Shown here: positions 1 to 63,699 of the stretch, in pieces
Layout: every line of letters begins with the position of its first letter
Position numbering within the stretch: position 1 is the first letter of the stretch
Assembly (NCBI RefSeq): GCF_000149955.1
Contig: NC_030994.1
Span: 2,720,366 to 2,784,365, forward strand
Length of the DNA stretch: 64,000 nucleotides
Reading direction: 5' to 3'
DNA from: Fusarium oxysporum f. sp. lycopersici 4287
Lineage: Eukaryota > Ascomycota > Sordariomycetes > Hypocreales > Nectriaceae
Made by a program: the position numbers and the translations under genes
The notes under the pieces: generated by a model
Database searches by the model: none
What the model saw: only the letters and a program-made list of their open reading frames with translations
Told to the model about the DNA's origin: nothing

Positions 1-282
1 AACCATTTGAGGGTGTTGAACCTGAGCCGGAGCTAGAGGTCGTTGAGCCGTTCGAAGTGACTGAGCCACGTGCGGTGATTGCGGAACTCGTGGTTGTGAA
101 ACTCGGGGTGATTGAGAAGTCTGCAAAGGTTGAACTGCTTTTGAAGCTTCAGCCCCTTCGGATGGTTGAGGAACTGCTGGTTCAGCTTTTGAAGACTCAA
201 CAGCCCCTGAATGAGTCACCTTGGAGGCCTCATCGCCCTCAATTAACTCAACCACCGTATCATTCTTCTCCGAAGCAGCCAT
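1..282 (-). CDS. 5' part of an unidentified gene
   Basis: A minus-strand reading frame starts at an ATG (282-280) and stays open to the window edge, so only about 94 N-terminal residues are visible. It begins MAASEKNDTVVELIEGDEAS and continues as a low-complexity chain rich in Pro, Gln, Ser, Ala and Val. Short repeated units of the type SQP/QSP (for example PRVSQP, PRVPQSP) run through it. No domain can be named and the part seen looks disordered. The overlapping plus-strand frame is a shadow of the same low-complexity sequence. I do not recognise the gene; the start is good but not certain. Confidence 0.55.
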   Translation of the reverse strand, partial: MAASEKNDTVVELIEGDEASKVTHSGAVESSKAEPAVPQPSEGAEASKAVQPLQTSQSPRVSQPRVPQSPHVAQSLRTAQRPLAPAQVQHPQMV

Positions 283-20760: not shown

Positions 20761-22205
20761 TTACTTCTGTCGCTTGAGCGACTTATGCGCCATCTCAATC
20801 AATCCGTCCTTAGCCTCACTCTCGGGGAATTCCGCAATCGAGGCAATAGCTTTATCCACGTATTCTTGCGCGAGAGCCCTCGTCTGCTCAATACCGTCGC
20901 TCTGAAGAACCAACTCACGTGCCTGTGCCGTTGTTAGCATGGATTATCTCCAACAGATGTGATTCGTCGGGTGACAAAGAGTGAATGCAGCCAACTTACC
21001 CTTTGTACGTCACCCTCCTGGGCAAACTTGCGGCCAACGAGGGCTCCGAGTTCCGGCATCTGCTTCCAAGCAAATAGCAGTGGTGCCGTCGCGAGTCCCA
21101 GCTCCAAATCTGCCCCCGCAGGCTTACCCAGATCCGATCCGCTCTGTGTATAATCCAAAAGGTCGTCTACCAACTGGAAAGCCAATCCCAGGTTTCGTCC
21201 ATACGAGTAAGCAGCATCGACTGTCACAGCATCCGTGTTACCCAGCAAAGCGGCAGCTCGGCAAGACTTTGAGATAAGCGATGCAGTCTTGAGGTACGTC
21301 TTTTGCAGGTAGTATGTGACAGTCTCCTCCGACCACTTGGGATTCCTCTCGTCCCGCTCCGTGTTCTTAAGCTGCATGAACTCGCCCTCCACGAGGTTAG
21401 CAATAACAGTAGCCAGCAGCTCGACAACCTCTGGGTTTCGAAGACGAGCCAGCGCAACAGATGCCCTGCCTAGCAAGAAATCACCAGCCAGAACAGCCAT
21501 CTTGTTGCCAAACTCCAAATTTGCCGAGGGCGAGCCACGTCGAGAAATAGAGTGATCGATAACGTCGTCGTGAAGGAGAGAAGCCGTGTGGATCAGCTCC
21601 GTGATTTCGGCAAGCCGTCGCTGGCTGGGAAGAATATCGGAGTTTGCATCGGGGACTTCTTGTTCGAGAGATGATAGAGGCTGAGCAGAGGGGTTCACAT
21701 CGGCGAGGATCTGAGCTGGCGATATCGAAGTGTCGACGCCACGGTAAGTAACTATAGGAGCCGTAGGAGGAGTCTTTGGGCAGAGATATGTAGCTCTGCT
21801 CATGAGGAGAACGATCAATGGTCTGACATGCTTGCCCTCAGCCTGGGTATAATATTTGGCAGCACGGTCAAGCGAAGGATGACCAGATCCGAGGAGTTTT
21901 CGAATGTTGCCCGTGAGGAACTTCATCTCTTTGGCGACAGTCCGTAGAGGATCGACATGCATTGCATCTTTGGAAGCCTTCTTGACGACATTGCTTACGA
22001 CGTTGGAAGCGACTTGAACAGCCGCACCCCAGGCTGAGTCCCTTCGAGGACTAGTATGCAACGAAGCGCTGTGTATCCTCGAGGGAGATCGACTGACGGT
22101 CAATTGTCTGCACAGAGCGCAAGCCGGAGCAGCAGCGCTTGTCCTCGTCCACAAGGCCTGTCTGTTCATAGTGCCGCGCACCACCGAGGCCCCCGGACGG
22201 AGCAT
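20761..22205 (-). CDS. COQ1: mitochondrial polyprenyl diphosphate synthase (ubiquinone side chain)
   Basis: Makes the isoprenoid tail of ubiquinone. Two exons (22205-21000 and 20922-20761) give 455 aa. The N-terminus (MLRPGASVVRGTMNRQALWT, then Arg/Ser/Ala-rich to RIHSASLHTSPRRDSAW) is a mitochondrial targeting sequence. The first aspartate-rich motif is in HTASLLHDDVIDHSISRRG and the second in GLAFQLVDDLLDYT, both complete. GKHVRPLIVLLMSR and GNKMAVLAGDFLLGRA are the other family blocks. There is a low-complexity insertion (about residues 140-195) before the first motif, common in fungal Coq1. It is divergent from the VMA12-like gene, sharing a 484-bp upstream region. Confidence 0.95.
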
Positions 22206-22689
22206 CGTAGCGGACCTTTATAGATAATTCCCAGACGGTGAATAAATCGAGTGTTATAACGGCATTCGTTTAATTATATCGTCTTGTCCGGGACGTTCGT
22301 AGGCGGTGGTAGTTTCGAGATCGTCAATGGCGAGGGAAATTTTGTTCGATGGCTGCTGGATTCTCGATTGATCCGATTCTCTAAACTTTTCCAGCTCTAG
22401 CTGTGTTCTGCTAAGCCGGGGGGTTTGCGGGTCCGTTCGGCGGGCAGCCGATAACAGGCCGTCAAGAGACGGAATGTGATTGGACGAATTGGGTATGGGG
22501 CCGTCAAGCTAAGCGTCAGCGGATGAATCGCTACGGAACTGGCCTGGAAATAGATGCCTGTTGATCAAGCTTTGGCCTTTGATACGTTTCAATTAAGCAT
22601 CAACGACAGCTCACCACGACTTTACCACTATTGAGCTTGTACCGGTTGTTTGAACACGATAACTTGCATAAGAAGTGCTACAGAACAAC
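22206..22689. promoter_or_regulatory. divergent promoter region COQ1 / VMA12-like
   Basis: 484 bp between the two start codons, containing no further gene. It should hold both promoters; no individual element is clear enough to name. Confidence 0.4.
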
Positions 22690-34885: not shown

Positions 34886-35166
34886 GGACGCCAACTATCT
34901 CCGTGCAGCACTGTGGGGGTGGGGTTGTCGGGGGGCTCAGGGGTTTGGCCGAACCAACAAGCGAATCACGATGGTTGCCTAAGCGCCTTGGTGAGCCGTG
35001 TAACCTACATTGCAACTCTGAAACGGTTTATTATAAATGTGTCAAACAGCCTTGCGGCAGCTCTAATGTTGCGATGGAGCCGTTATCTTACCGTCCTGCG
35101 CTTCAGTCTTTGTCGATAATGAATTGGCGGCTTTCATACACGCCTCCATAAACCAGCAAACTAGCA

Positions 35167-38100
35167 ATGGCATCACGAGACGACTATATCGTCGGGTGGG
35201 TCTGTGCCCTGCCCTTGGTAGCAACTGCTGCCGAGGCGATGCTAGACTCCGTTCACCCCGATGGGCCCTTGGACCTGGATATAACTGGCGATATCAAGTT
35301 TATCTTTGGCAGACTTAATGGCTACGACATCGTGCTCGCACATCCATCCCCCGGGAATCAAGGAACTGGCTCAGCTGTGGAAACCGTTGAGCAAGTCCGT
35401 GTGACCTTCAGGTCCATCCGGTTCATTCTCCTGATCGGATTAGGAGGAGGCGTCCCGCACACGAAGGAGAACATTTCCCTTGGGGATGTAGTTGTGGGAA
35501 GACCAGAGCCAGGTCGCTCTGGTCTGGTGCTGTACGAGGGAGGCAAGGTGCACTGGAACGATGACGACGCGGGCAATGGCCGCTCTGAAGGCTCGTTTGA
35601 AAAGCCATCCTCTAGTCTGTTGACCGCGACGCGGAAAGTGGAGATGAACTCGATTCTTGGCAACAGTCACATGCGGACTTACATGAACACCATCATGAAT
35701 AAACATTCTACAATATTCGCCCCGCCCGAGCTGGAGAAAGACGGTACGGTCGGTGCACAAGACGGGGATGGGGACGTAAAGAGCTTGGATGGCAGAGGTG
35801 AACGGAATGGATGTCATACTTATACCGGGCAAGCAAGCGCAGACCGGTTGCCCAAGGTCCATTACGGGCTTGTTGCAACCAGTCGTCATCCATTGAGAGA
35901 CTGCGAGACTCGGGATAGCCTGGCAGCGGACCACGGCATTCTCTGCTTCGAGACCGAAGCGTTTGGTCTACCCGACAGCGGTCGTATCCAAGTCATTAGA
36001 GGAATATGCGGTTATTCCGATTCGTTCTTTACTGACGAATGGCAAGGCTATGCCGCCGCTGCGGCGGCGGCGTACGCAAGAGAGCTCTTAATGTCAATGC
36101 CCACCACCACAAAGCCCATGGCGCGGGAGATCGAAACCCGAGCAACAACATCCACCGTGCTTAAGGCTCTACTATTAACCAGGCCTGAGGTGGACCGCAG
36201 CTCTTTGATCGCCCTGAAAGGACGGAGAGCTGATGGCACATGCGAGTGGCTCACACGACACGCAAACTACCAAAGATGGGCTGCTGGCGACAGTCCGCCC
36301 CTGCTCTGGGTCTCGGGTGGTCCTGGAAAGGGGAAGACAATGCTGGCCATCTATGTAACCGAGCTGCTGCAACCAGAACAAGATTCGACAGAGGGGGTCC
36401 TTCTCTACTATTTCTGCAGTAACCGTGACAAGAACCGGAACTCAGCTATTACCATCATGAGAGGAATTATACACCAGTGGATCACCGCCGAGCCTCATTT
36501 GGCGCAGCACGTCAAGAGCTATTTCGACGGCTCTGAAACGATTAAATACACAATATCCAATTTTGTGACCCTATGGAGGGTCTTTCTCTCCCTGCTTCGC
36601 GAGACCGCATCAAGCACCATCACCTGTGTGCTGGACGGCCTGGATGAGTGCGAAAAGGGGTCGCTCCAACAGCTCCTGGATGCTTTAAGGAACTATTTAT
36701 CTCAAAATGCGAAAGATACAAGGTCGAACCTAAGACTGATTCTTCTCTCGCGCTCCCAACCAGCAATACTGGAGAGCAAACTTGGTCATTTTCCCCGGGT
36801 CAGGTTGGACGAATCAGACATGGAGGTAGCCAAGGATGTCGAGAGATACATCGCATCCAAGGTTTCAGAGCTCGCCTTGGATCAAACCCTGTCAGAGGAC
36901 CAACTATCGCAAGTGCGGCAGGCCTTGATGGACGGCGCCGATGGCACCTTTCTCTGGGTTGGTTTCGTTGCGGACGAGCTCAAGGGACGAAGTTGGCAAA
37001 AGATCCAGGATATTCTCCACCGAATGCCCAAAGGCCTAGGTGGCGTTTACCAGCGGCTACTGCAGCAGGTTGAGGACAAGGAACAGCTGATTCCCATCTT
37101 GCGGTGGCTTGTGCTTGCTGCAAGGCCTCTGACAATCGACGAACTCTGTGTGGCAGCCAAGATTGCTCCGTCTATCGACCGTACTGCCGCTGAGGCTACA
37201 CGGGATCGGCTCAACTCCTGCGGGCTTCTGGTGAAGGTCGACGGGGACGTAGCCAACCTCGTGCACGAGTCCGCCAAAGAGTTTTTCCAAAGCGATCAAG
37301 TTGATGATCTCGAAGAGATCAGCATGTTCCGCATGGGTCCGGCCACTCACCGTACACTTATGGACGCCTGTCTGTCACTGATCGAGAACAGCCATGTTTC
37401 CTCAGCGAGCATCAGCGAGCAGTCCCTCACCAAACACCTCCTGACCTATGCCTGTCTTTACTGGCCCTACCACTTGCAGCGCGCACACGAACTGGTTAGT
37501 GACCGTTCTATGTTCACGCGTTCATTCTTCAAGCCCGAGACTCCGATCAGGGAGGACTGGTGGAAGTTCTACTGGGACAAAGAGCAGTATGGTGGAGCAC
37601 CGCCCTCTTTTTCACTGCTACATCTCGCCTCATACCTGGATATTCCAGCTTGGACCAGGGTGCTGCTAGAGCAAGACGCCACGAAGCATAGCTCCCGCCA
37701 CAGACTTGTTGCACGGAAAGATAACTATGGTCGGACGCCACTATTCTGGGCCGCGACCCGGGGTCACAAAGACATCGTCGAGCTGTTACTCAAGCACGGT
37801 GCCCCCGTAAGCTCCAAAGACCGGAGCAATATGACACCGCTGCATATAGCGGTCACGGGAGGACACAAGGATGTTGTATCTCTTCTCCTTGAACATTCCG
37901 CCCCGATCGAAGCCAAGGCGAGCTATGGCGACACACCACTGATACGAGCCATCCAGGCCAACTCTAAAGAAATCGTCCAGCTCCTTCTGGAGCATGGAGC
38001 GAGCGTTGCTGATTTGCCTATCATTGGCACGGATCAGCGGAGCCAGCGGACGATGACCACGGAAGAGAGGGCAGAACAGCTGCTCGGGTTGCAGGAGCAG

Positions 38101-39189
38101 CTCTTCGCGGCCAGGTACGAGGAATCTTCGCGCCTCGTCGGGCTCACGATCAAGACGCTCACCTTATCGTTCCAATTTCAGCCCATCGTCAAACTTTTCA
38201 AGTTCTATCTCGAGCACTCCTCCATCGGTCGTTGGGAAGTGATGCACGTGCTCCAGGACCTGGTCAGGAACAACAAGATTGCGAGGCTGCGGAACTGGGC
38301 TCAAGCCTATATCGATTTTGGCACCCAACTGGTCCAGGCAGAGGACGCAAAGAACCTCGCCATCATGACGGATCTTTCGGTCCAGGTATTCCGCGTAGTC
38401 TCCACCGGCGACCTCGAGGCTCTGCTGGTGATCGGCGTCCTCGTCGGCTCGAGCGTCATACTCGCCGCGGCCGAAAAGGGATGGTGGCCGGGCGTCGACA
38501 TCTCGGCACGCACGTTCGCCCAGTTTGCTGCTCTGGCGTATCACAGAGACCGGGGCAAGTTCTTGCACTACGGCGTCCGGGAGTTCCTTGTCGAGTTCGA
38601 CGGCTGCATCCGTGGTGGAAGAAGGTCTGAGAGCGCGGCTCGGACCGTCGTGCTCTTCAGCACCCACTTCGCCATCATCGACACCAAGGAGCCTCGCCCG
38701 ATCGATTACTTTGCGACAATCATCGCAGAGTACTATGAAGGTTACGTCGGTACCGCTGACGAGGAGCGGCTCTTTAGTGACGCGACTCATGCGTGCGCTG
38801 ATGAGCTTGAGATCATTGGCAAAACGCGCGATTCTCACAAACTGCTGTTGTTCGTCACCGCCATCCTGCAGTTCATAGAGCGCTGCTCTAAGGACATAGC
38901 CAAGGACCACTTCTTAAGCATGATACCCGCGTCGTGCCTGATACTCTGTCAACGAGGCCATGCGCTTCATGAATGGCTTATTGCCCAAGCAATTCCTGAG
39001 ACCATGAGTGTTTCGATATCGCAGCAGCCGGAGATGGCCCAAAGGCGTGCCTTCAAGGCTGTTGTTGAGTGTATCATCATTGGCAAGCAATACGGGCTGT
39101 TAGATCCCGTGATTCTGCAACAGAGGCTCAGGAAAACTCTTAATATCAGTAACTATGTCAGTAAAACGCTGGAGGAAATTCTGCTTTGA
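35167..39189 (+). CDS. NLR-type receptor: nucleoside phosphorylase-like, NACHT, ankyrin repeats, novel C-terminus
   Basis: Single 4-kb exon, 1340 aa, ATG 35167 (MASRDDYIVGWVCALPLVAT). Residues about 5-310: nucleoside phosphorylase-like domain (FILLIGLGGGVPHTKENISL, then LGDVVVGRPEPGR, later FETEAFGLPDSGRIQVIRGI). Residues about 355-560: NACHT with P-loop LLWVSGGPGKGKTMLAIYV (about 382) and Walker B TCVLDGLDECEKGSLQQLLD (about 487), followed by a sensor-like LRLILLSRSQP. A helical region (QRLLQQVEDKEQLIPILRWL, then LAARPLTIDELCVAAKI) follows. Residues about 845-950: three ankyrin repeats (TPLFWAATRGHKDIVELLLK, TPLHIAVTGGHKDVVSLLLE, TPLIRAIQANSKEIVQLLLE). The last about 380 residues are mostly helical and unknown to me. 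Fungal NLRs of this layout sense non-self and can trigger regulated cell death. It faces the ankyrin gene and lies near the gasdermin-protease pair. Confidence 0.92.
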   Translation: MASRDDYIVGWVCALPLVATAAEAMLDSVHPDGPLDLDITGDIKFIFGRLNGYDIVLAHPSPGNQGTGSAVETVEQVRVTFRSIRFILLIGLGGGVPHTKENISLGDVVVGRPEPGRSGLVLYEGGKVHWNDDDAGNGRSEGSFEKPSSSLLTATRKVEMNSILGNSHMRTYMNTIMNKHSTIFAPPELEKDGTVGAQDGDGDVKSLDGRGERNGCHTYTGQASADRLPKVHYGLVATSRHPLRDCETRDSLAADHGILCFETEAFGLPDSGRIQVIRGICGYSDSFFTDEWQGYAAAAAAAYARELLMSMPTTTKPMAREIETRATTSTVLKALLLTRPEVDRSSLIALKGRRADGTCEWLTRHANYQRWAAGDSPPLLWVSGGPGKGKTMLAIYVTELLQPEQDSTEGVLLYYFCSNRDKNRNSAITIMRGIIHQWITAEPHLAQHVKSYFDGSETIKYTISNFVTLWRVFLSLLRETASSTITCVLDGLDECEKGSLQQLLDALRNYLSQNAKDTRSNLRLILLSRSQPAILESKLGHFPRVRLDESDMEVAKDVERYIASKVSELALDQTLSEDQLSQVRQALMDGADGTFLWVGFVADELKGRSWQKIQDILHRMPKGLGGVYQRLLQQVEDKEQLIPILRWLVLAARPLTIDELCVAAKIAPSIDRTAAEATRDRLNSCGLLVKVDGDVANLVHESAKEFFQSDQVDDLEEISMFRMGPATHRTLMDACLSLIENSHVSSASISEQSLTKHLLTYACLYWPYHLQRAHELVSDRSMFTRSFFKPETPIREDWWKFYWDKEQYGGAPPSFSLLHLASYLDIPAWTRVLLEQDATKHSSRHRLVARKDNYGRTPLFWAATRGHKDIVELLLKHGAPVSSKDRSNMTPLHIAVTGGHKDVVSLLLEHSAPIEAKASYGDTPLIRAIQANSKEIVQLLLEHGASVADLPIIGTDQRSQRTMTTEERAEQLLGLQEQLFAARYEESSRLVGLTIKTLTLSFQFQPIVKLFKFYLEHSSIGRWEVMHVLQDLVRNNKIARLRNWAQAYIDFGTQLVQAEDAKNLAIMTDLSVQVFRVVSTGDLEALLVIGVLVGSSVILAAAEKGWWPGVDISARTFAQFAALAYHRDRGKFLHYGVREFLVEFDGCIRGGRRSESAARTVVLFSTHFAIIDTKEPRPIDYFATIIAEYYEGYVGTADEERLFSDATHACADELEIIGKTRDSHKLLLFVTAILQFIERCSKDIAKDHFLSMIPASCLILCQRGHALHEWLIAQAIPETMSVSISQQPEMAQRRAFKAVVECIIIGKQYGLLDPVILQQRLRKTLNISNYVSKTLEEILL

Positions 39190-39469: not shown

Positions 39470-42400
39470 TCAAGACATACCTTGGCCTCTGAGTCGCTTC
39501 CAGAAGCTTGAAATCCTAGATCGAGGTTGTTCGCTTCTTGATTCTGCCTTGGCTTGGCTGTGAGTATCAGACGGAGCAGACGTGTTCTGGGTCTGTGGAT
39601 CAGGCTTCATCGGCCACACCGAAGCATCAGGCGGGTAAAGCGAGTTCATAGAATCGGCTTGGTGCAATATCAATCTGATCTGCTCGTCTTTCTCAGTGTC
39701 GTGAACTGGCTTGCTGTACCCGTACCGCCGAAGTTGTTGCAGTATTTCAGAGTTATGGACAAATAGTTCCCACATCTGCCGCCCCGCTGGAAGGATGTTC
39801 GGATCCGCACCCTTGCTTAACAGCAATTCTACGATTCGCAGGTGGCCTTTACTCGCAGCATAATACAGTGCGGTTCTCCTTCCAGCATCGGTGCCATTGA
39901 TATCATGACCCTGGTCCAAGAGGAGTTCGGCCAGGTCTATATTGTTCTCCCGTGCCGCTTTTCGTAGTCCGGTGACTGGCCTGCAACATCGAGACTTGGA
40001 GTATGCCAAATTGCTGAGTTTCGCATAAGTATGACTCCCGAGCTCAATGTCGAGCCAATCTTCTGCTGTGCGGCCGGTGTCATCTCGCTCGACGAGGAGC
40101 CGGTCTCCAAGAGGTAGGCGGAGGAGTTCTCTGACCGTATCCAGATGCCTCCCAAGAACGGCAAGATGTAGTGTAGACCAGCCGTGATTGTCCTGCGAAA
40201 GAATGAGTCGATCTGTCCCTTCACTTGGACCGCAGTCGGTGTAGATCTGCGATATGATAGCATGGTTCCCTAGGTAGGCAACGTGATGCATCATTGTCCA
40301 GCCATGACATGTTGCGCTATTCAGATCTGCCCCGTAACTGAGAAGCTGACGGATTCGATGTACACCACTGCCTGCAACACAGTGCAATGGTGAAGTTCCA
40401 TATAAGCTCACCGCATTCACATCGGCCTCATAATCCAGGATCAATTCTATGACAGGCCTTCTAATGTCAACCGCGGACTCGGCATCTCGGCCCTCGGTAT
40501 GTGATGCTGGTCCCTCAACAGCCCAGTGTATAGCGGACCACCCGTCGTGATCTCGCTCGTTTGGAGAGGCACCCTCTGAAAGGAGGAGGCTTACTACATC
40601 CACCATGCCCTGAGCAGCCGCCTGGTTCATCAGGAGAGCCTCGGAGACTCTTGGTAGTGATGGCCTTGACTTGATGAAAAGCATAGCCAGGTGGTGCTGG
40701 CCAAGACTGATTGCCCATCCCGCAGCAGAAGTACCCCGTGAATTGTCGTACTTGTCCGCCGGGTCAGCCCCAAGTGATTCCAGCTTGTAGATTATGCCTG
40801 AGTGTTCGCTGACAGCAGCCCATAGTAGTGGCGTGAATCCATAATCGTCGAGAATATCGATTGAGGCCCCAGCTTGTACCAGCAAGCCAATGCCTTCCAC
40901 AAAGCCTCCTCTTGCCGCGTAGTGCAGTGGCGTCAGGCCGTTCTCGTCTTTGGCGCAAATCGCCTCGTGATCAGAAGATTCTAGCAAAAGCCTCATTGTA
41001 TCTTCCTTGCGGTAAAGAGCAGCGTAATGAAGAGGCTTCTTGCTGCGAGACCTGTCGCTTCCAGTGACAAGATGCATCAAAGCCCGAACTCGTTCCACGT
41101 CGTCGCATTGAATCGCAAGATATAGTGCATCGAGATCTGGTGGCTGACGAGTGTCTTCAAGATCGAGCTTTTTAATCGACGAAGTAATGGTTTCCTTGAG
41201 ATCGCCAGTCCGGTCGTCTCCGGCAGTATCTGAGAAGTTCAATTCGTCATCGTCCATGATGCTGCACATAGACCCACGTAACTTTGCACCGCCTTCTTCT
41301 CCAATTAATATGTCACTGGCTAAGTCGCTGGCCTCTGTCTCGCCGTCAGTAGGGAGCTTCTGCAGCGCCAGCAGCGCAAGCTCCTTCATGTGTGCGGCAA
41401 CGTGAGAATGCAGATTGTCATAGGAGAAAATTCCATAACGGTCGGTCTCTTCAGATGGGACAAAGTCGTCACCAAAAGGACACTCGTGTATCTTGTCCTG
41501 GAATGGCCTCCGCGCTGCTTCACTCAATGTCCGGACGTAAGCCTCGGGAACACCGTGTTCATCGCAAGAATGCTTCTGGAATTGGATCTCGTCTCTGAAG
41601 ATCATAGGCTTGTGAGAAGGAGCTCTGCATTCCCACGCGATTCCGTGCGAGTTCTGCATATGGCTCATCCACGCTTTGGATGATTCGAAAGTCAATGGAT
41701 CGTGACCCTGTCGACATGAATCCGTACATGCAGTGAAGAGACAAATGAATGGCTCTAGATCCCTAATGACATGGGTTCTGTTGGCAGTCAGTCTTCACAC
41801 CGCAATATAAGAGGAGAAGATTTGCGCACCTCCAGATGTTGTATTTGTTAGGGCCCTTGAATTCGATGATCACGCCACAGTAAGGACATTCATTCTGTTG
41901 CGGAATGGGTGGGAAAGACAGCTCGTTGTTCACCAACACGGACTTTGCTCGGGGAACCTCCGTTGTGGACTTTGCGTACAGCGCCCCGATCTCGGTCTGC
42001 CGAGCGGTGGTAGCATAAGTTAACGGAGCGGGTGGGTAGTCCTGCCGACTAGGATCCTCGTTGGTGACTTTGATTTTTGGGGTTGCCTCTGGAGCAAACC
42101 GCACAGTCCTTGGCTTCTCCGGAATCTTGGGCAGTGGCATTTTTATTTGATCTGCCTGCGGGTGTTCAATGCTCAACGCAACACGTCTCCGATGCAGCCT
42201 CTGATAAGACAGCCGCCGAAGCCGCAGTGCATTTGCTTCAATAAGGGCGCCGCGAAGCGATTCTGGGGCCTCAGGGAATCGGAAGCGAATATAACAGTCG
42301 GTGTACAAGCGCAGCTCATCAATAGCACGTTGTGTGTCATCATCCAGCTGATAGTCCTTTAGCTTTTGTGCTCTCGAGGTCTTTGCGGACTTTCTAATCG

Positions 42401-42974
42401 CATTAGACAATCGAAATAACCGCGTCACAGTGCCACTGATGGTGTACGTGAGGAGGGAAGTGTTTTTTTCGGATTGGTCTTCGTCACTGTCTATGTCGCT
42501 GGCGTTGTCCTCACTCTCGACCACGCGCACTTGGTCTGAAATAGATATGCGCCGCTTCTTCCTGCTCGGGGTCGGTGGTGGCTCGACTATCGGTTTCACT
42601 ATAGCAGAAATGACTGTTAAAAACCACCATTTGGAACACATTGAGTAGCGTTTGATCTACTCACACTCCATGAGAGAGCTGTAGATCACGTCTAGGAGCT
42701 GGTGAAGAATATCGACAATGTTCGGACTGTACCTGAGCCTGAAATCCAGAGAGATGTTCGGCGGCCCAAAGACGTCCATGTTGGAAGCCCATAACGTAAA
42801 CCTCGCTAGCTGGTCATCCATTATTGTTGGATCAGGGATAATGTTGGGCATAGTCATATTCTTCTGGAAGAGCTCGGTGCATTTCAGCGCATGCTCGGCA
42901 ATCGTAGGTCCGGAGATATCTTTGAGAAAGATGTCCTCTGGCTTATCCAGATCCATGGGGGCAGATTGTGCCAT
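39470..42974 (-). CDS. C2H2-like zinc-finger and ankyrin-repeat protein
   Basis: Three exons (42974-42665, 42598-41830, 41777-39470) give 1128 aa. The N-terminal about 100 residues (MAQSAPMDLDKPEDIFLKDI) and a polar region follow no family I can name. Around residues 340-440 lies a run of Cys/His: NECPYCGVIIEFKGPNKYNI, then HVIRDLEPFICLFTACTDSC, then HMQNSHGIAWECRAPSH and HSCDEHGVPEAY. It resembles the degenerate zinc-finger block that precedes ankyrin arrays in fungal STAND-like proteins. Residues about 575-1040 carry ankyrin repeats (KPLHYAALYRKEDTMRLLLE, TPLHYAARGGFVEGIGLLVQ, TALYYAASKGHLRIVELLLS). There is no NACHT. It converges on the NLR (280 bp between stops) and diverges from the gasdermin-like gene (578 bp). 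The second intron's acceptor could also be 18 nt upstream. Confidence 0.85.
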
Positions 42975-43552
42975 GATGGTCAAGACGGACAGGCAGCGAG
43001 GGCTTTCCCGTGTGCTGGAGGCTCACGATTTCGGGTTATGGAATATCCCTTGTGTGGCTTGCGACGGTCAAAGTTGCCAGACTTCTTTCTGCCTTGAAGC
43101 CTACGAGGCGGTGTCGCTGTATGGTCATCCAGCACCAAGAGCCAACTGCATCGGTGGTGTCCATCGAGCGGCAGCAACCAACGGCTTACATCCAGGCCGC
43201 GCTGTCATTGGCTGATCCCAGCGGGAAGACCCGTGCAAGGCGCTCGGCAGGAGAAGCGGGGCGACTGAAGGTCTGAAATTACCTTGGGCACTGCCGCCAG
43301 CAGACCCTGCTTCCAAGCGCGCGCTAATGGAACCCATCTTCATCACAAGCCTGGCAGCTGGGAGGTTGAGGTTGACTTGCAAACCTCCAGGGCTTATATA
43401 TATAATGGCTGGCTTTCGCCGCAGTCCAGCAGCTAGACGTGGCAAATACTCTCGGGGCTTCCATTGAAATAAGCAAGTCTTCCCCCAAAGCCCAAAAACA
43501 AACGAAAGGAGTGAGATTATCTACGGCCGGGCTCACAATCTCAATTGAAGCC
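42975..43552. promoter_or_regulatory. divergent promoter region with TATA element
   Basis: 578 bp between the starts of the zinc-finger/ankyrin gene and the gasdermin-like gene. TATATATATAA at 43395-43405 lies about 150 bp before the gasdermin-like ATG. Confidence 0.5.
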
Positions 43553-44383
43553 ATGGCAACTTTCACAAAGACTTACTTCCTCTGTCCAACCACCGAGTTC
43601 ATTCAGGCGCCTCCCACTGGTCCATTACGACTGGGCTCCCTACTCCGGTCCACAGCGACGCCCCAGTATCCTCTCAATGCCACGCACAATATCCCTCTGG
43701 CACAGGACCCTTCTCCTATTGTAGAGACCGCTTGGAAGAAAACAGTCTCGGCCGAAACGGGTCTGGGCCTCGGCGTCTATGCACAGTTCCTACGACTCGG
43801 TCTTGGTCCTGAAGCCAGTGCCGATCATTCCAGTCAAGCGTCGAGCGTCTTTGCTTTTGATTCCATGACAACGTTATCATTCGATCCAGAGCCACAGTAT
43901 GTTAAGGAAGCAATTAAAGCGCCCACTGTGCAGGCCTACTTGAAAGAGCCGAAGCAGCGCTTCGCCCCCATCGTCTCGCTCTACCTGGTGACCGGCTTGA
44001 AGCTCGTCAAAGGCGCAAACATCAAGTACTCGACGTCGAGCAGCACGGACGTCAAAGCAAATATCGGCATCAACGTGGCGCCTCTCGGCCTGACCATCGG
44101 CCCGAAAGGCCACTGGACGAGGAAGAGTGATGACGATACCGAGTTCAACAGGGAGTCTGAATTCGTTTTCGCGTTTCGCGTGAAGCGGCTCAAGATCGGA
44201 CTTGGAAGAAAGCTGGAGGCAGAAGGTTATACAAAAGGTGCATTCTTGACCACTGGGGAGGAGGCAGATGACAGCGAACAAGAAGCTTGTCTGATGGACG
44301 ACGTAGATGGCTCCTCCTGCGCAAACGCTAGTTTTGTTGGTGATGCCACTGAGGGCGAGTGCGTGTACTGCATTCCTGCATGA
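43553..44383 (+). CDS. fungal gasdermin-like pore-forming cell-death protein (HET-Q1/RCD-1 type)
   Basis: Single exon, 276 aa, ATG 43553 in a strong context (GAAGCCATGGCA); the frame runs further upstream but without ATG. Length and pattern fit the fungal gasdermins RCD-1 (Neurospora) and HET-Q1 (Podospora). The N-terminal block is TFTKTYFLCPTTEFIQAPPT, then GPLRLGSLL. Amphipathic strands follow, with the conserved middle IVSLYLVTGLKLVKGANIKY and the later ESEFVFAFRVKRLKIGLG. The tail after about residue 218 is acidic and Cys-containing (TTGEEADDSEQEACLMDD) and is the part expected to be inhibitory and removable. No signal peptide. Proteolytic release of the N-terminal part lets gasdermins form membrane pores and kill the cell. 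The subtilase gene 108 bp away, tail to tail, is the likely activator. Assignment is from pattern, not alignment. Confidence 0.8.
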   Translation: MATFTKTYFLCPTTEFIQAPPTGPLRLGSLLRSTATPQYPLNATHNIPLAQDPSPIVETAWKKTVSAETGLGLGVYAQFLRLGLGPEASADHSSQASSVFAFDSMTTLSFDPEPQYVKEAIKAPTVQAYLKEPKQRFAPIVSLYLVTGLKLVKGANIKYSTSSSTDVKANIGINVAPLGLTIGPKGHWTRKSDDDTEFNRESEFVFAFRVKRLKIGLGRKLEAEGYTKGAFLTTGEEADDSEQEACLMDDVDGSSCANASFVGDATEGECVYCIPA

Positions 44384-44491
44384 TCCGGGCTGGTTTGGCT
44401 GGATATCTTGACGGACACATCACAACAGGCTTTCTCTTTGTCAACATATTTTTGGGGTATCTATTCGAGTGACCATTTTCCTTCTTGGTGT

Positions 44492-47400
44492 TTACTGTAA
44501 CATGATGTCCCTGATGTGCTTGATTCTGGTGTATATCTCCTCCCTTGATGATCCCATGTTCGACAGAAACTGTGGTAGGATGTAGTCGTAATCATCGCGT
44601 CTCTTGCCTTTCGTTATGCTCTTGAGCACAACTTTCATATGGTCAAAATCCTTCAGCCACTTGCCTAGTCGGTCGGTATCGGTAGGCGAATTCTGCTCTT
44701 GCTGCCTCACAAAAGAGAGGAGCGAAGCAGCAATCCCGGCGGCGATAGGCGTCGCTACCGATGTCCCGGACATGACACGAATGTTACTGTTGTGACCATT
44801 CGTACCGACAGGCCAGTGCGACTCAACATTCTCCCCGAGGAGAGAGAAGTTCACATCATCTTCTTCAGCCATCGGATTAAAGCCGGAAGGGACCCCGTTC
44901 CCATTGGATGAGTGTATGCAAAAGACCCCGCTATCTTTGGCTGGGAAAGCTCGACCGTGGTTTAGCCCGTCGTTTGACGCTGCTGCGAACATCAGTGTTT
45001 GCTTCTTTCCTGCATTCCGTATTGCTTCTTTCATATCCTCATGGAATTCCCGGATTCCAAAGGACATAGAGATAACATCCACCTCCCACACAGATACGGC
45101 GTGGTTGATGGCCTTACACAGTGTTAGTCAAAGGGCCCAAGAAAGTTGCACATCCTCAAGCTCGATCCGTGCCATAAGATATGCGCAAAGCTGCTGTCAG
45201 ACTTACCTTTGAGATGGCACTATAGCTGTCGCGACCTAGCGTTGCTTGGTTTGCGATTCTGGCTATATAAATCTCAGCGCACGTGGCAACCTTAAGCAAG
45301 AGACCAAGAGCATGGGTGCCGTGTCCAATTTCATCCTGATACTCCCCCTCATTCCGTCCGGCAACAAAGTTCTGGAATCCCTTTATCCGCGAATCAATGT
45401 TTCCTTCGTTGTTCCTCAAGAGCGGATGGGTAGGGTCGAAACCAGAGTCCAAAATTGCTATGCGCACCGGACCATCAACGCCAGACGCAGTGCGTGGCGT
45501 CCCTCCATGCGACATAAAGTCCTCATAGGGATCAACATACTGATAGATCGGCATCATCATTTTATCCATCCAACGATCTGATAATGGTTTTCTTCAGGGT
45601 TTGTCAGTTCGCACAACACGAAAACGCCTTGGAAGACAGCTTACTCTTGCACAGAGGCCATTTGATGGTTCGCATCAAAGAATTGTAAGCTCTGAGAAGC
45701 TTCAACAGGTATGTAGTGGCGAGGCAAGCCGGGAGTCTGCACTGTGCTGTACCGTCTTGCTGTGGTTTGCAGATCTGGAGACGGTAGGATCACGGGGGGT
45801 TCTGAAGTAGCTTTTGTGACTGACTCGCGCCTAGCTGTATGCTGTCGGATGACCTCGCAGCCATTCTTGCCCCAACAACGCTGGTTTTCGTAAGCACTCA
45901 AGCTCTGCAAGTTTTCTAAGTCTTTCAGCCACGTTTTGGGGAACTCGGATTCGAGTCTCTTCACCACGTTCTGGTAGAACAGCTTTTGAACGCTGGCGGA
46001 TTCAAATGTTGTATGCTCTCCAGCGGGTAGGTATTCCCATTGAAGGCATGCCTTTGTGGCAAGGTAATAGTCCATCCCGGCATCGACTTCGAGGTCTTTA
46101 AGGACTTCTAAACTGGTATAGTAAGCACTGTTGACAGTCTGACTAGCGTCTGGGTCGTCTTGCCAAGCTTCTATAGGTTTGCAATAATGAAGCTCGCACA
46201 ACAGGATACCAAGCGCGAGCACGCTGGCGTTAGGATGGACCATATGCTTAGCAGTGTCAATCTCGGCTTCATTTTCCCTGGCCACTGCTCTATTGGGCAT
46301 AGCAATGGGAACTCGCTTCATGTCCAGAAAGGGTTTCGTAATATCGGGAAGACTGTCTTCCCCCAACGGCTGAAAGAACTGTATGTTTGAATGGTTGAAG
46401 GTCGGTTGCACCCAAGGTGTTTCGAGGAAGGGAAGCAGCGCCGTTGCAAGGACGACAGCAAGTATTCGCTTTCCCATATGTGGCAAAACCGAGGTCCCAC
46501 CAGTCAGCTCCTGCTGGCGTTTGAAAAGAGCAGATAATGACACCATCTGTGGGTGGTGAGAGTCCCCAAAAGCTTTAGGCTGTGGACGAAGCCTCCTAAA
46601 CATTCCATTCTCAAACTTAAGATGCAGGCAAGTTTGTTGATCTAACGACTCTTTGATAGTCTGGCAGATATGCACAAAATCGGACAGCACACTAGGCGCG
46701 ATCTCTGATTTGTGTCCATACAGGTCGACTGCCTCGTCCCTAGACAAGTCATATTAGTCAATGGATTATCTTCGCGAGTAAGGCATTTACTTGATGGTGA
46801 TCTTTGCCTCCTGCAGCGAGACCTGCAGCAGTGATTGCACGCCAAAAAAGACTTCGAATGACGTCTCCAACGGCGAGCTTTTTCCCGGCGGAGGCAACGA
46901 GAGCCTGACGGTCAAGCGCGAGCATTTCTGACATACACACGTCCAGTGTGTCCGCAGCCCCTGATATAGCAACATGGACTGTTTTCTCGCCCGGATTGCA
47001 AAGTCTGCTTCAGGCGCATTCGCATCATCAACCGCGTCTGGGTTGTCTCGAACAATTACCCGGCGTTTCTTCGTGAGGGTTTCCATGCACTGGAACTCTT
47101 CGAGGACGGCGTCCTGGTCTCGCTTTCGTTTGCTCAAACGGATTGCTGCGTCGGACGGTCGACCTCCCTGTCCATCTGCCCGTTGAAGGATGTGATTGAC
47201 CGCTTCGAGGTTCGGGTACGGCGCCTCCTGGTTAAAGTTCTATCTCATTCTGCATCAGTGGTGGAAATCGTTGGCTGGGATCAGGCAGCTGACAAAGTCT
47301 ACATCCTGGTTCTTTTTGAGCTGTACGAGATTATTGAGCGCACGCAATGCGTTCGCTTGGTGCTGTGGGTCGAGACTCTCGAAGTCTTGGGTCTCGTACT

Positions 47401-47536
47401 GTAAAAAAGCATCCGTCCGTACCCAAGCGTTGCGCGCCTGCGATTCCACAGTCTGAGGAGTTGATCGTTCTGGCGACCACCCGGCTACATAACCCAGTAT
47501 CCTCCTGAACAAGCTGGCTTGTCCGTTCTGGTTCAT
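44492..47536 (-). CDS. DUF7580-subtilase (S8) protease, HET-Q2-like
   Basis: Five exons (47536-47303, 47239-46791, 46739-45645, 45591-45207, 45112-44492), phases consistent, 927 aa. Residues 1 to about 590 form a helical region of the DUF7580 type. It starts MNQNGQASLFRRILGYVAGW; later blocks are THWTCVCQKCSRLTVRLSLP, MGKRILAVVLATALLPFLET and LALGILLCELHYCKPIEAW. Residues about 635-900 are a subtilisin-like protease with a full triad. Asp (about 641) is in VRIAILDSGFDPTHPLL, His (about 683) in QDEIGHGTHALGLLL, Ser (about 839) in IRVMSGTSVATPIAAGIAAS. The oxyanion Asn is in LMFAAASNDGLNHGRAFP. There is no signal peptide, so it should act in the cytosol. Gene order and content match fungal gasdermin-protease pairs; the likely substrate is the neighbouring gasdermin-like protein. 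The first intron could use a nearby alternative donor. Confidence 0.9.
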
Positions 47537-52329: not shown

Positions 52330-53628
52330 ATGGGTGGTGGTCCTGAAGGTTTCCGCACCGTCGCTTACTTTGTCAACTGGTATGAAACTACCCTGTATCG
52401 AGACATTGAACTCAGCTAACGAGAACAGGGCCATTTATGCCCGACAGCATCGTCCTCAAGATCTTCCCGTAGAGAACCTCACACATGTTCTCTACTCATT
52501 CGCCAATGTCCGCAGCGACTCTGGCGAAGTGTAAGTCACAACCAACGCTCATCTCAATGCAGCCCAGCTAACATCATCAGCCATCTCACCGACTCATGGG
52601 CCGATACTGACATTCACTGGGATGGCGACTCCTGGAATGACCAAGGCACCAACTTATACGGCTGTATGAAGCAGCTCAACCTTCTCAAGCGTCGTAACCG
52701 CAACCTTAAGGTTCTTCTCAGTGTTGGAGGATGGACCTACAGCAGTAACTTCAAGGCTCCTGCCAGCACACCCCAAGGACGCGATACCTTCGCCAAGAGC
52801 TGCGTTGACCTTCTCAAGAACCTCGGATTCGACGGTATCGACATTGATTGGGAGTACCCTCAGAACGCAGATGAGGCTAGAGATTACGTTGAGCTGCTTG
52901 CTGCGGTTCGATGTGAGATGGATGCTTATGCCCAGACTTTGAGCCAGCCTTATCATTTCGAACTGACCGTTGCTTGTCCCGCTGGCGCGACAAACTTCCA
53001 GAAGCTCGACATTCGTGGAATGGATCGATATCTTGATTTCTGGAATCTGATGGCCTACGATTATGCTGGGTCTTGGGACTCTGTTGCTGGCCACCAGGCG
53101 AACTTGTACCCATCTCCCGACAACCCCCAATCAACACCCTTCTCTACATCCGCCGCCATCGACTTCTACGTTCGCAGCGGCGTATCCCCTGGGAAAATCG
53201 TTCTCGGCATGCCCCTCTACGGCCGAGCTTTCGAGAACACCGACGGTCCAGGCCGCCCCTACCAAGGCGTAGGTGGAGGAACCTGGGAAGCTGGTGTCCA
53301 CGACTACAAGAAACTTCCCCTCGAGGGTGCTACAGAGTATGGGGACAGAGGATGCTGCGCAAGCTACTGCTACAACCCCCAGACACGAACCATGGTCACA
53401 TACGACACGCCGCGAGTTGCCTGGGACAAGGCGGAGTATGTCAAGAAGTGGAAGCTCGGAGGTGCAATGTGGTGGGAGAGCAGTGCGGACAAGACTGGTG
53501 AACAAAGTCTGATCACGACTGTTGTGAATGGGTTTGGTGGACCGGGTGCACTTATGAGGCAGGATAATTGCATTGAGTATCCTGCGAGTAAGTATGATAA
53601 CTTGCGAAATGGATTCCCAGACAATTGA
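52330..53628 (+). CDS. GH18 chitinase without signal peptide
   Basis: Three exons (52330-52379, 52429-52530, 52581-53628) give 399 aa. A GH18 TIM barrel starting almost at once: [20 protein letters not shown], then [16 protein letters not shown], the substrate-binding [17 protein letters not shown], and the catalytic motif [13 protein letters not shown] (D-x2-D-x-D-x-E complete, Glu the acid). [17 protein letters not shown] and [13 protein letters not shown] are further family blocks; [20 protein letters not shown] closes the barrel. It degrades or remodels chitin. Related fungal endochitinases start with a secretion signal; this start (MGGGPEG) has none, so it may act inside the cell or leave by another route. 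No chitin-binding module is present. Confidence 0.93.
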
Positions 53629-59301: not shown

Positions 59302-62300
59302 CTAAAACCCTCCATCAAACTGCTGCACCAAATCCGTCCCATTCTCCGAACAAGCAAACGCATCAACACAAACACCCCCACCACAACAGCTTCCCGTCAA
59401 GCACAAATACCCATCCCCACAATCCCCATCAGCTTCACAACTTCCCTTGTAATTCGTACACTCTGTCCACTCAAATGCAATGCCTACACCCGTAGCACTC
59501 TTACCGCAGACACAGCCCGTGCCTGGGATGATAGCGTCGCGGGGATATGAACATGTAGCGCCTTCTCCTTCTGCGACAGCGCTGTTGGGACAGCAGGCGA
59601 TGCGTGATGAGTCCTGAACTGTGATGTTGTAGGGTTTTGTTGTTTCGGGGGCCCAGTTGAGGGTTGTTATGGCGGGGATGCGTGTTGCGCCGGCGATGAG
59701 GGTTAGGTTGAGGGGGATTTCGCCTTCGTGGAGGGATTGGCAGATGTCGTTTTCGAAGCTTCGACGGGTGTTGTATACGTCGATGTAATCTTCCAAAGCA
59801 CCCTGTGAAGTCTCTGTGCTCTTGGTGAAAAGTGCTCCGAGAGCTTGCCAGAGTTGAGTGTACGCCACGACAGCTGCATCGGCCTCTTGCTTTGCTCTGT
59901 CGCTGGACAGACCTTGGTTGGCAAGGTCTTTGCGAAGCTGTTCAGGGTCTACGATGTCTTGTCCTGATTCTTCAAGCGTGGTGACGACAGTGGACAAGTC
60001 AGGACATGCACCGCCGAACGGATCTGTGGAGATGAAGTCGACGACCCTGTTCTTGATCGCCAACTGACATCTCAAGGAGCCAGACTCAGATCCCGGAAAC
60101 GTACACTCAAAGTCCCAACGCCCAGTATCATCGTCAACAGCGACATCTGCACAGACTGTATTGCCTACAAGAAGCTGAGGATACTGTCTGACCGACCTGT
60201 CAACGGGATTCCCGCATTGGTCATGTAGGTACAGAACCTGACTGAAGTCCAAGTCCTCGGCGCGCTTGTGCTTGAGTGCAGCACATTGTACACCCGCCAA
60301 GTCGGCAATCTGCTGGTACATATCGTCAATCGAGATTGATATGCCGTACGTGCAGTTACTCCCCGAGAAGTGAATCCCCTCAGCATCAAGCGTGACCAAA
60401 TACCCGTTAGGATCAACGACCGAAAGCCTTCCACGATGAGAAATGTCGACATAGCAAATCCCGCCTTGTTCATCGCGGACAGTGAGATACAGCGGATTAA
60501 CGCCATCCTTCTCAAACTCAACAGACTCGATGTAAGGAATGGGGATTGAGACGTTGCCTTCTCGGAGTCTGGCGTTGTATAGCAACGCTCGACGGGTCGA
60601 ATCACCGTCTGGGTTGGGGAGAGTGTAGCATGTTTCTTGTGAGATGGCTGTGGTGCGTGTAACGTGGGTGAAGTTGACGGCAGGGAACTCGGGAACGCCA
60701 GTTGCTGTTGCGTTACTACCTGGTGACGCGGGGCCGTTGGAGGTGCCGGACGTTGAAGTTGCAGCCACAGGACTCGAGACGGATGTAACGGTTCCAGTAC
60801 TTCCTGGTGCAGAGCCCGTAGTGTCACCGCTCGGAACAGCACTTTCACTGGCAGCAGTGCTGGGCACCTCTGAAGAGCCTGTTGGAAAAGGCGGAGTTGG
60901 AATTTCAGAGATTGGTACACTGATGGTTGGGAGGGAGATGACGCCTGAGATGGACGACGTGATGTTCCAGCCAACACCGCCGCTTTGAGAACTGGTAAGA
61001 ATCTCTGACTCTGTTGAAAGAGCCACGATTGAACCAGACTCAGAAGAGCCGGCGGTCGCAACAGAACCAGAGCCCTCAGATTGCCCAGTTGTTGTGTTCC
61101 AACCAGTCACCAAAGTCTCACTTCGGCCCATGCCTGACGTTGCTTGAGAAAAGGTCGGCAAAGATACACTTGGTAACGGAACCAGCGATGACGTCCCAGT
61201 CTGCGATACACTGGTCGTCGGGACGGAGACATTACCTCCAGGCGCAGAAGTGGTGCCATTCCAGCTCGGAACTGCGCTGCTTTCGGGCACCGAGCTTGTT
61301 CCACTCCCAGGCTCAGTCGTGATCGACTCACCCGGCAGCGGCAGTGTTGGAAACGGTAACGTCCCACCCCGAGTTATACTGATTGACGGTATAGTGAAGT
61401 TAACCCCTGGTGGGGCAGTGCTGTTCCAACTGGGGAATTGATTACCACTAGTCTCTGGGTTTGTCGTCAGACTGTCGCTTGGGAAAGGCTGAGTTGGAAA
61501 CGGGACAAAGGTTTGGGATGGGGATATACTGATGGTCGGTATAGTCACGTTGCCACCGGATGGTCGAGCAGTGTTGTTCCAGCTTGGCGAGAGACTGCTT
61601 CCCGATGTTGCTTCAGCTGACGAGAATGGACTCGGCAGTGATACCGTCGGGAACGGTATGAAAGATTCGCTGGCTGTACTGATGGTTGGTACTGAGGAAT
61701 TCCCGCCAGGAGGTAGAGAAGTGGTGTTCCAGCTCGGAGACAAACTGCTCCCTGTCGTCGCCTCTACTGAGGATGATGAAGCTGGGAGTGATACCGTTGG
61801 GAATGGCACAAATGAACCAGTGGTGCTTACAGTTGGTACTGACAAGTTACCACCTGATGGGAGGGAAGTGCTGTTCCAACTTGGGCCCAAGCTACTGCCC
61901 GAAGTGATTTCTGTTGAAGAGAGTTGAGCCGAAGCTGATGGCAGCAAGGTACCAGTCGAAGCGCTGATAGTTGGTAGCGACATGTTACTCCCAAAGGGGA
62001 TGGAAGTACTGTTCCAGGGGGGATTGAAGCTGGTCCCTGAAGTAAACCCCCCTGAAGACGTTTGAACCGAAGCTGACGACGTTGGGAAAGGGTCCAAGCT
62101 CCCGCTGGAAGCACTAGTTACGGTTGCAGATGTGTTTCCTCCAGAAGGAAGAGACGTGCTATTCCAGCTGGGTCCGAAGCTACTCCCCGAGCTTGTGACC
62201 ACCGAAGATGCTTGGCTTGATAGAGACAACGTTGGAAACGGAACGAATGTGCCACTCGAGATGCTGATTGTCGGTACCGAGCCATTACCTCTCGGCGTGG

Positions 62301-63699
62301 TACCATTCCAGCTTGGACCTACACTCCCGCTTGATGAACCACCAGAGCTTGCGGGAACCGAGGCCGTTGGGAACGGCACGAACGTCCCACTGGAGCTACT
62401 GACTGTTGGTACTGAGCCATTACCCATCGAAACAGAGGTAGTTCCATTCCAACTTGGCCCTATAGTACTACTAGATGAGGCCCCAGTGATGGTAGAAGCC
62501 GAGGCTGTAGGGAAGGGTACGAAGCTTCCACCGGAGATGTCGGTAGTCGGAGCCGATCCATTGCCTCTCGACGCTGACGTGGTGTTCCAACTTGGAGCCA
62601 CACTACCACTCGACGAGCTCCCAGAACTAGTGAAGTCCGAGCCTGTAGGAAATGATACAAAACTCCCACTTGAGAGACTGACAGTTGGAATCGAACCATT
62701 CGCTGTTGAGGCTGAAGTCGTATTCCAACTTGGTCCTACACTCTCACCCGTTGTCCTAGACCCAGTGGTTACAGACACACTTAGAACCGACTCTGTAGGG
62801 ATAGTCACAAAAGGCCCTGTCCCCGAAATACCACCGCTCGGGGCAGTCATACTCGAGTTCCACCCTGTCAATGTCCCAATCGGACGTGTCCCACTCTCCA
62901 CAGGACTCGACGACGAGTTACCAGGAAAAGACCACGGTGGCGAATCGGTTGTAGCGCCAGATCGTGTCGTTCGGGTATCTGATAGTTGGGATGTTACACC
63001 CGTGTTGGACTGGAGAGTTTGGGTCCGGTTGCCAGATTGGGAGTGAGATGAAGTAGGTGCTCGGTCTTGGCTTGAGAAGGATGCTGAGGAGGGACCTTCG
63101 GTATCTGCTAGTGACTCTGTGGTGGTGTTCCATGAAGCTGCTGAACCTGATCTTGTAAGGCTTTCGCTGGCTGATCCTGTAGTTGGACTGCTGCTGTTGG
63201 CGTATGTCGTCCTGGGAACATCTCCAGTCATCTCTCGTGCTGTCGTCTCTCCACCAGACGCTGCAGTCTGATTCCACGACGCTTCAGTCGTCGAATACGC
63301 TCCCCCAATCGTCGTCTCAGCATACGTTCCCGACCCAGGCTGTCCCACCGACACCTCCGTCGAATCCGAATACCCCCTCGTCCTAGACTCATCTGCATTT
63401 GTAGTGCTGAAACTCGCACTCGTCACAATACACTCGCACTGAAACTCATAAGCAATCATCCAAACTTATCACGAGCCACTCACATATGAAGCTATCCTTG
63501 TCTGATTATACCTCACATACTCCGCAGGCGTACTATATCCCGCACCGCAATGATTCCCCTCAAGAACACTAGAACAAAACTCGCCATCATCTTGAATGAG
63601 CGATGAGTAAAGATCATCATGTGGACAAGCGATCGATTCGTTCCAGTTTGCAGGAAAGGCAGTGACCAAGTGAACGACGAGGGGGAGTAGCATCAACAT
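59302..63699 (-). CDS. large secreted Ser/Thr-rich repeat protein with Cys-rich C-terminal end
   Basis: Two exons (63699-63484 and 63438-59302) give 1450 aa. The signal peptide is MLMLLPLVVHLVTAFPANWN with cleavage likely after TAF or nearby. A short Cys-containing domain follows (IACPHDDLYSSLIQDDGEFC, then SSVLEGNHCGAGYSTPAEYV), spliced into CECIVTSASFSTT. Residues about 95-930 are almost only Ser, Thr, Gly, Pro and Val, with many N-glycosylation sites of the form WNSTS. They contain a tandem repeat of about 40-45 residues. The last about 500 residues are a globular region (ESVEFEKDGVNPLYLTVRDE, FECTFPGSESGSLRCQLAI) ending in a Cys-rich knot (CTNYKGSCEADGDCGDGYLC). It looks like a cell-surface mucin or adhesin. 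No GPI-anchor signal is evident at the end. The function is not known to me. Confidence 0.85.
61150..62760 (-). repeat. coding minisatellite in the surface protein gene
   Basis: About 12 tandem units of roughly 120-135 bp encode variants of GPSWNSTSLPSGGNSSVPTV, then STSGSFVPFPTVSLPASSS. On the plus strand the recurring words are TTCCAGCTTGG and GGGAACGG. Neighbouring units are more alike than distant ones. Confidence 0.7.

Follow-up and report, generated by a model that had tools for sequence, protein, structure and literature searches.

A stretch of 64,000 nucleotides from Fusarium oxysporum f. sp. lycopersici 4287 (contig NC_030994.1, positions 2,720,366 to 2,784,365; hereafter 'the window') holds three adjoining genes that probably form a regulated-cell-death module: an ankyrin-repeat protein gene, a gene for a subtilase carrying a DUF7580 region and, between them, a gasdermin gene. 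The family identities, the intact genes, a conserved candidate cut site and tail, and the linkage and co-inheritance of the genes are observed here. A sequence-only reading of the same DNA had proposed a two-gene module modelled on the HET-Q1/HET-Q2 pair of Podospora. From that interpretation the gasdermin identity, the S8 protease with its triad, the acidic tail and the linkage stand, while the HET-Q pair model does not, and the limit to two genes appears too narrow. The gasdermin and protease genes lie side by side in the same haplotype, and the unit at the locus is laid out as follows.

39470 to 42974, minus strand: ankyrin-repeat protein gene, 1128 amino acids (aa); exons 42974-42665, 42598-41830 and 41777-39470.
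42975 to 43552, no strand: divergent intergenic region of 578 bp between the ankyrin and gasdermin genes, a candidate shared promoter.
43553 to 44383, plus strand: fungal gasdermin gene, a single exon of 276 codons plus stop; candidate cell-death executioner.
44384 to 44491, no strand: convergent spacer of 108 bp between the stop codons of the gasdermin and protease genes.
44492 to 47536, minus strand: DUF7580-subtilase gene, 930 aa; exons 47536-47294, 47239-46791, 46739-45645, 45591-45207 and 45112-44492.

The tail-to-tail arrangement had been described correctly, and the intact S8 protease gene, 108 bp from the gasdermin gene, lies within the <=10 kb that delimits clusters of fGSDM-Q2-like S8 pairs.

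The gasdermin had been recognised from three motifs, which start at residues 8, 142 and 202 of the 276-aa protein. Its identity is borne out by a profile search with alignment A1 (the window gasdermin and 90 of 120 listed matches, from 320 in all), which finds RCD-1-2 at E 9e-13 and RCD-1-1 at E 4.6e-12; the single sequence alone matches RCD-1 at E 5.9e-8. A predicted-structure search, which the sequence-only reading had suggested as a check for a gasdermin N-terminal fold, likewise matches the RCD-1 fold (best row, model range 4..228). Chance is not the explanation: the relatives at E<=0.01 number 320, and other genomes show the linkage too. In the local copy of Pfam no family was found for the gasdermin, four relatives gave only one chance match, and PF26164, a precomputed label on some relatives, has no match. 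The parts of the protein that matter for activation are the following.

43553 to 44245, plus strand: predicted basic pore-forming core, residues 1-231; the RCD-1-fold match ends at about residue 228, and the isoelectric point (pI) is 9.3.
44243 to 44245, plus strand: codon TTC of F231, a candidate P1 position for activating cleavage (Phe in 90/91 sequences; the HET-Q1 analogue is F238).
44246 to 44380, plus strand: acidic C-terminal tail, residues 232-276, a putative inhibitor (45 aa, 4.6 kDa, pI 4.05).

All tail and core figures assume a boundary at F231. With this boundary the tail has zero Lys or Arg, in agreement with the acidic tail first reported, and the pattern is conserved: across A1 the tail is 42-49 aa long with 0-4 basic residues and a pI of at most 4.4 in 91/91, and the core has a median pI of 9.1 (minimum 7.7). 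The one sequence without Phe at position 231 has Leu, and G229 and A230 are present in 91/91. F231 sits just beyond the end of the RCD-1-fold match at residue 228, in a low-confidence stretch of the model (227-253) that follows the last core strand (221-225). By analogy with F238 of HET-Q1, F231 is a candidate cut site.

The protease gene is not a single open reading frame; it has four short GT-AG introns (54, 51, 53 and 94 nt) and no internal stop. Its product is identical at 915/930 positions (98%) to its closest relative, the annotated Fusarium oxysporum protein P0121, and contains two regions of note.

44711 to 45467, minus strand: Peptidase S8 domain, residues 638-858, with intron 45206-45113 inside.
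45449-45447, 45323-45321 and 44761-44759, minus strand: codons of the catalytic triad Asp644, His686 and Ser842.
45938 to 46993, minus strand: DUF7580 (PF24476) region, residues 164-498 (E 5.1e-30 on P0121, same numbering), with intron 46790-46740 inside.

The S8 match has E 2e-21 in the window protein and 8.7e-22 in P0121, and the full triad claimed earlier is there, each residue also being present in 56/56 aligned relatives (alignment A2, 56 of the 113 protease matches). A 923-aa intron model of the window protease, 7 residues short of 930, served for the relative search, the Pfam scan, A2, the identity correlations, the 27-row protease tree and the 10-row trees. No signal peptide is evident by eye (no predictor was used), and this is the sole basis for calling the protease cytosolic. 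The Pfam scan found no repeats on it. A literature search on DUF7580 gave no paper. Kinase-like domains are predicted according to a 2025 review (PMC12881547), which, together with the order of secondary structure, led us to consider DUF7580 as a pseudokinase. The profile search gives no support: neither the PDB matches at E <= 10 (8-sequence profile or single sequence) nor Pfam relate it to kinases, and the S8 domain fills the fold lists.

Just before the S8 domain, within residues 584-590 of P0121 (window 45682-45662, minus strand), F585, D586 and A587 are present in 56/56. The segment sits where bacterial intracellular subtilisins have their inhibitory propeptide (PMC6220982), and VIA ranges start at ~580 on those precursors. 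That it acts as such a propeptide is a weak idea, because model confidence there is low. As a separate observation, the DUF7580 region of P0121 is 89.5-91% identical to those of P0123, P0124 and P0127 (F. mexicanum, F. verticillioides and F. proliferatum), the S8 domain just 74-78% and the N-terminus 70.5-72%; across the protease family the two domains are conserved about equally (70-71%). Recombination, selection or gene-model error are possible causes of this contrast.

We propose the ankyrin protein as the third component of the module. Its gene is transcribed away from the gasdermin gene, and its closest relative (99% identity) is in F. oxysporum f. sp. vasinfectum. The ankyrin repeats lie in the C-terminal part of the protein, as they do in the relative P0234. 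The N-terminal ~520 aa have no significant family in the Pfam copy used and a best PDB match of only E 0.37. This part is nevertheless well kept: residues 41-100 have a mean majority frequency of 0.87 (56 sequences), and 19 Cys/His positions within residues 1-560, including C341, C344 and H362, are conserved at >=95%. The alignment comprises the window protein and 55 of its 66 best matches, those of >=1000 aa (120 of 131 matches were listed). The Cys/His pattern looks like zinc fingers, with zinc binding putative. NACHT and NB-ARC domains are absent by Pfam scans from the protease, the ankyrin exons, the ankyrin N-terminus and four relatives.

Linkage in other genomes was scored by serial locus tags among the listed matches of the three families. 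Tags were readable for 59/120 gasdermin, 73/113 protease and 63/120 ankyrin rows; ALUC, with a tag of odd form, was omitted, and JGI 'DRAFT' tags were displayed and excluded from the counts. On this basis, gasdermin and protease are within 4 tags in 7/8 genomes, gasdermin and ankyrin are linked in 7/8, and protease and ankyrin in 13/17. Eleven of these 13 are exactly two apart, which leaves room for one gene between. In three genomes the genes are consecutive or nearly so, with gasdermin in the middle: ETB97_000457/458/459, CDD82_3358/3357/3356 and N0V90_001844/1843/1841 (protease/gasdermin/ankyrin). Contigs tell a similar story, taking contigs of equal size as one: all three families share 9, gasdermin and protease 26, gasdermin and ankyrin 24 (two of them merely 12.8 and 14.5 kb long), and protease and ankyrin 37. 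An earlier contig comparison covered 106/113 proteases; the contig of P0179, missing there, is included here. The proposal of a probable two-gene module is thus right about the conserved gasdermin-protease linkage and too narrow in extent, as the conserved unit appears to include the ankyrin gene at 42974-39470.

The genes also appear to share a history. Pairwise identities correlate between gasdermin and protease (r 0.866, n 27) and between protease and ankyrin N-terminus (r 0.894, n 38), with 0/5000 permutations in each case; Cladonia (JMJ35) was kept in the pair analyses despite a 123-tag gap. In the 27-row trees, gasdermin and protease agree on a clade of 17 rows and one of 7, both with more than one fungal class in them, and 10-row trees of gasdermin, protease and ankyrin have three starred branches in common. 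One of these groups Ophiocordyceps and Trichoderma with Aspergillus and leaves out Fusarium, although Ophiocordyceps, Trichoderma and Fusarium all belong to Hypocreales. Sordariomycetes as one clade is rejected by the approximately unbiased (AU) test (p-AU 4e-6), as is Hypocreales (p-AU 0.008); the groups tested are standard taxa, but were chosen after the tree was seen. A long-branch warning applies to Cordyceps with Fusarium in the 27-row protease tree, Cordyceps is also flagged as long in the gasdermin tree, and the Pyrenula rows come from a metagenome-assembled genome with possible contamination. Because the same species-incongruent clades recur in the gene trees, the three genes seem to have been inherited together as one module, with two or more deep lineages.

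A general origin of the incongruence in horizontal transfer was rejected. Much of it is explained by an old duplication of the entire module, with losses, because Fusarium mundagurra and Xylaria scruposa carry two module types (their protease and ankyrin genes fall into two types, which sit on separate contigs). A further protease-ankyrin pair, FOVSG1_003280/003282, ~49-56% identical (contigs 5529485 and 3712977), is present in F. oxysporum f. sp. vasinfectum, in an annotation that also holds the window-type ankyrin gene FOVSG1_002996. The gasdermin P0005 of Emericellopsis atlantica is 91% identical to that of F. beomiforme and nested among Fusarium rows (99/93), and the Fusarium kuroshium gasdermin is only 58.5% identical to P0005; this looks like a recent transfer. 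Some between-class gasdermin pairs are ~91% identical (e.g. Metarhizium-Exophiala and Monosporascus-Aspergillus bertholletiae), and Fusarium and Trichoderma gasdermins, from one order, ~60%; duplication and horizontal transfer are both candidate causes of the high values. Among the papers listed on transfer and on Starship elements, judged by their titles and the openings of their abstracts, we recognised none that deals with gasdermins moving between fungi.

From these data we infer how inhibition, cleavage, pore formation, sensing and the part played by the ankyrin protein might fit together. The gasdermin would be produced in a silent form, with the acidic tail of 45 residues keeping hold of the basic pore-forming core. 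A trigger sensed by the ankyrin protein, by the DUF7580 half of the protease, or by both would switch on the subtilase, which would cut after F231 or nearby, within the linker that joins core to tail. The released core would then oligomerise in the plasma membrane and kill the hyphal compartment. As gasdermin and protease occur in one haplotype, the protease must presumably be held inactive under normal conditions, and its extra ~540 residues relative to HET-Q2 would be a natural place for this control.

Several points weigh against this reading. Cleavage, pore and death are predicted steps, and the gasdermin model is poor (mean predicted local distance difference test score, pLDDT, 55.5; predicted template modelling score, pTM, 0.58), so that docking of the tail stays putative. 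Shared species history alone would also yield co-varying identities. Other genomes are represented by tags and contigs rather than by DNA, so that gene order there is read indirectly and orientation not at all, and the linkage has exceptions: gasdermin and protease are 123 tags apart in JMJ35, gasdermin and ankyrin 635 in BHE90, and protease and ankyrin 1541 in FGRMN, 5437 in FVEG, 70 in LZL87 and 6760 in THARTR1. For JMJ35, FVEG and LZL87 both genes lie on equal-sized contigs, and the tags there may be numbered out of positional order; the contigs of the two genes differ in BHE90, FGRMN and THARTR1. Finally, Emericellopsis has a window-type gasdermin on a 759-kb contig with no partner among the matches listed.

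One alternative is that gasdermin and protease cooperate alone, the ankyrin gene being a co-regulated or hitchhiking neighbour or serving another process. Reviews describe two-gene clusters, often with the repeats on the protease itself (PMC10989679), and 4/17 genomes are without protease-ankyrin adjacency by tags. We consider this unlikely, as ankyrin linkage (7/8 and 13/17) is about as frequent as gasdermin-protease linkage (7/8), the ankyrin tree has the same starred branches, and a hitchhiker is not expected to remain adjacent across several ascomycete classes. Alternatively, this could be a heterokaryon-incompatibility (het) locus of the HET-Q type, with alternative alleles per strain and cleavage and death upon fusion. 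In P. anserina and N. crassa, those relatives that have been characterised belong to the het genes (PMC12881547), and the protease varies within F. oxysporum (P0122 and P0121 are 89.6% identical in the S8 domain and 72% in the C-terminus). HET-Q1 and HET-Q2, however, are idiomorphs, that is, alternative genes of one locus (PMC12881547), and so do not form the two-gene pair in one genome for which they had been taken as model; here both genes are in one haplotype, and the allorecognition analogy fails. Moreover, gasdermin identity of ~60% between fungal classes is, in our judgement, unlike a young allorecognition locus and, with a third conserved partner, suggests a standing pathway instead. 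A het locus is therefore distinctly improbable. It is very unlikely that the pore is regulated for secretion or another non-lethal process, a role that a review names as possible for gasdermin-protease clusters, given that HET-Q1 and RCD-1, the fungal gasdermins that have been characterised, cause cell death (PMC12881547). Least probable of all is a protease that acts as a brake or housekeeper removing gasdermin, with activation allelic or through the ankyrin protein: RCD-1 is activated without cleavage (PMC12881547), but at 244-257 aa it matches the core only, and the 42-49-aa acidic tail with a near-invariant Phe before it resembles the cleaved HET-Q1.

Returning to the three-gene module, its reach may be wider. 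Filamentous ascomycetes may have a conserved three-protein pyroptosis pathway inherited as a unit, with an ankyrin/Cys-His sensor or scaffold, a DUF7580-subtilase and a gasdermin pore, inflammasome-like without an NLR and with duplicate lineages in some genomes; we offer this tentatively, the balance tipping slightly against it. A 2025 review (PMC12881547) names as a major open question what stimulates the putative sensors of these fungal death pathways, and the ankyrin gene, about as well conserved as its two neighbours, is a concrete candidate. Conservation across classes, and module lineages that recur in distant fungi, suggest a standing defence or stress pathway over a strain-specific incompatibility gene. 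In practical terms, the module could be rebuilt in yeast, and the near-invariant F231 offers a single-residue test.

Elsewhere in the window, a 1345-aa open frame at 35152-39189 (plus strand) encodes an NLR-type protein with weak PNP_UDP_1 and NPHP3_N/NACHT matches and ankyrin repeats; 280 bp lie between its end and that of the ankyrin gene. Other frames lie at 12290-16372 (minus), 20937-22217 (minus), 52420-53625 (plus) and 59305-63465 (minus). The other frames include two ABC-transporter frames (ABC_tran and ABC2_membrane), a polyprenyl synthetase, a GH18-family gene and a 1387-aa open frame without a Pfam family.

How does the module compare with known systems? Many fungal gasdermin genes sit beside protease genes, as had been stated: ~80% are clustered with proteases and ~63% with S8 proteases (PMC10197012). 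The gasdermin-S8 pair itself is therefore of a known kind, and the data suggest that the conserved ankyrin gene is the new element; in the papers searched, we saw no ankyrin gene described as a conserved third partner of such a pair. HET-Q1 of Podospora anserina (278 aa; 276 here) also has an S8 protease as its counterpart, and is cut at P1 residue F238, which removes 40 residues (PMC10989679); the candidate Phe here is 45 residues from the C-terminus. By contrast, HET-Q2 has 388 aa (PMC10989679) and no large regulatory part, unlike the 930-aa protease with DUF7580, and the Podospora genes are idiomorphs rather than neighbours in one haplotype with a linked ankyrin gene. In fGSDM-Q2-like S8 two-gene clusters (PMC10197012, PMC10989679, PMC12881547) a gasdermin likewise adjoins a multidomain S8 protease; the differences here are the third conserved gene, the lack of detected repeats on the protease and the ~60% identity between classes. 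RCD-1-1/RCD-1-2 of Neurospora crassa share the gasdermin fold of the core, but their activation is allele-driven and independent of cleavage, and their length (PMC12881547) corresponds to the core of the window gasdermin only. Mammalian NLR-caspase-GSDMD is alike by analogy only, in that sensor, protease and pore are separate proteins; its protease is of another class, the sensor proposed here is without NACHT or NB-ARC, and the inhibitory region of GSDMD is unrelated (PMC12881547). Altogether, the findings suggest that the cell-suicide pathway known from inflammation in animals has a relative in these fungi that is made of three parts.

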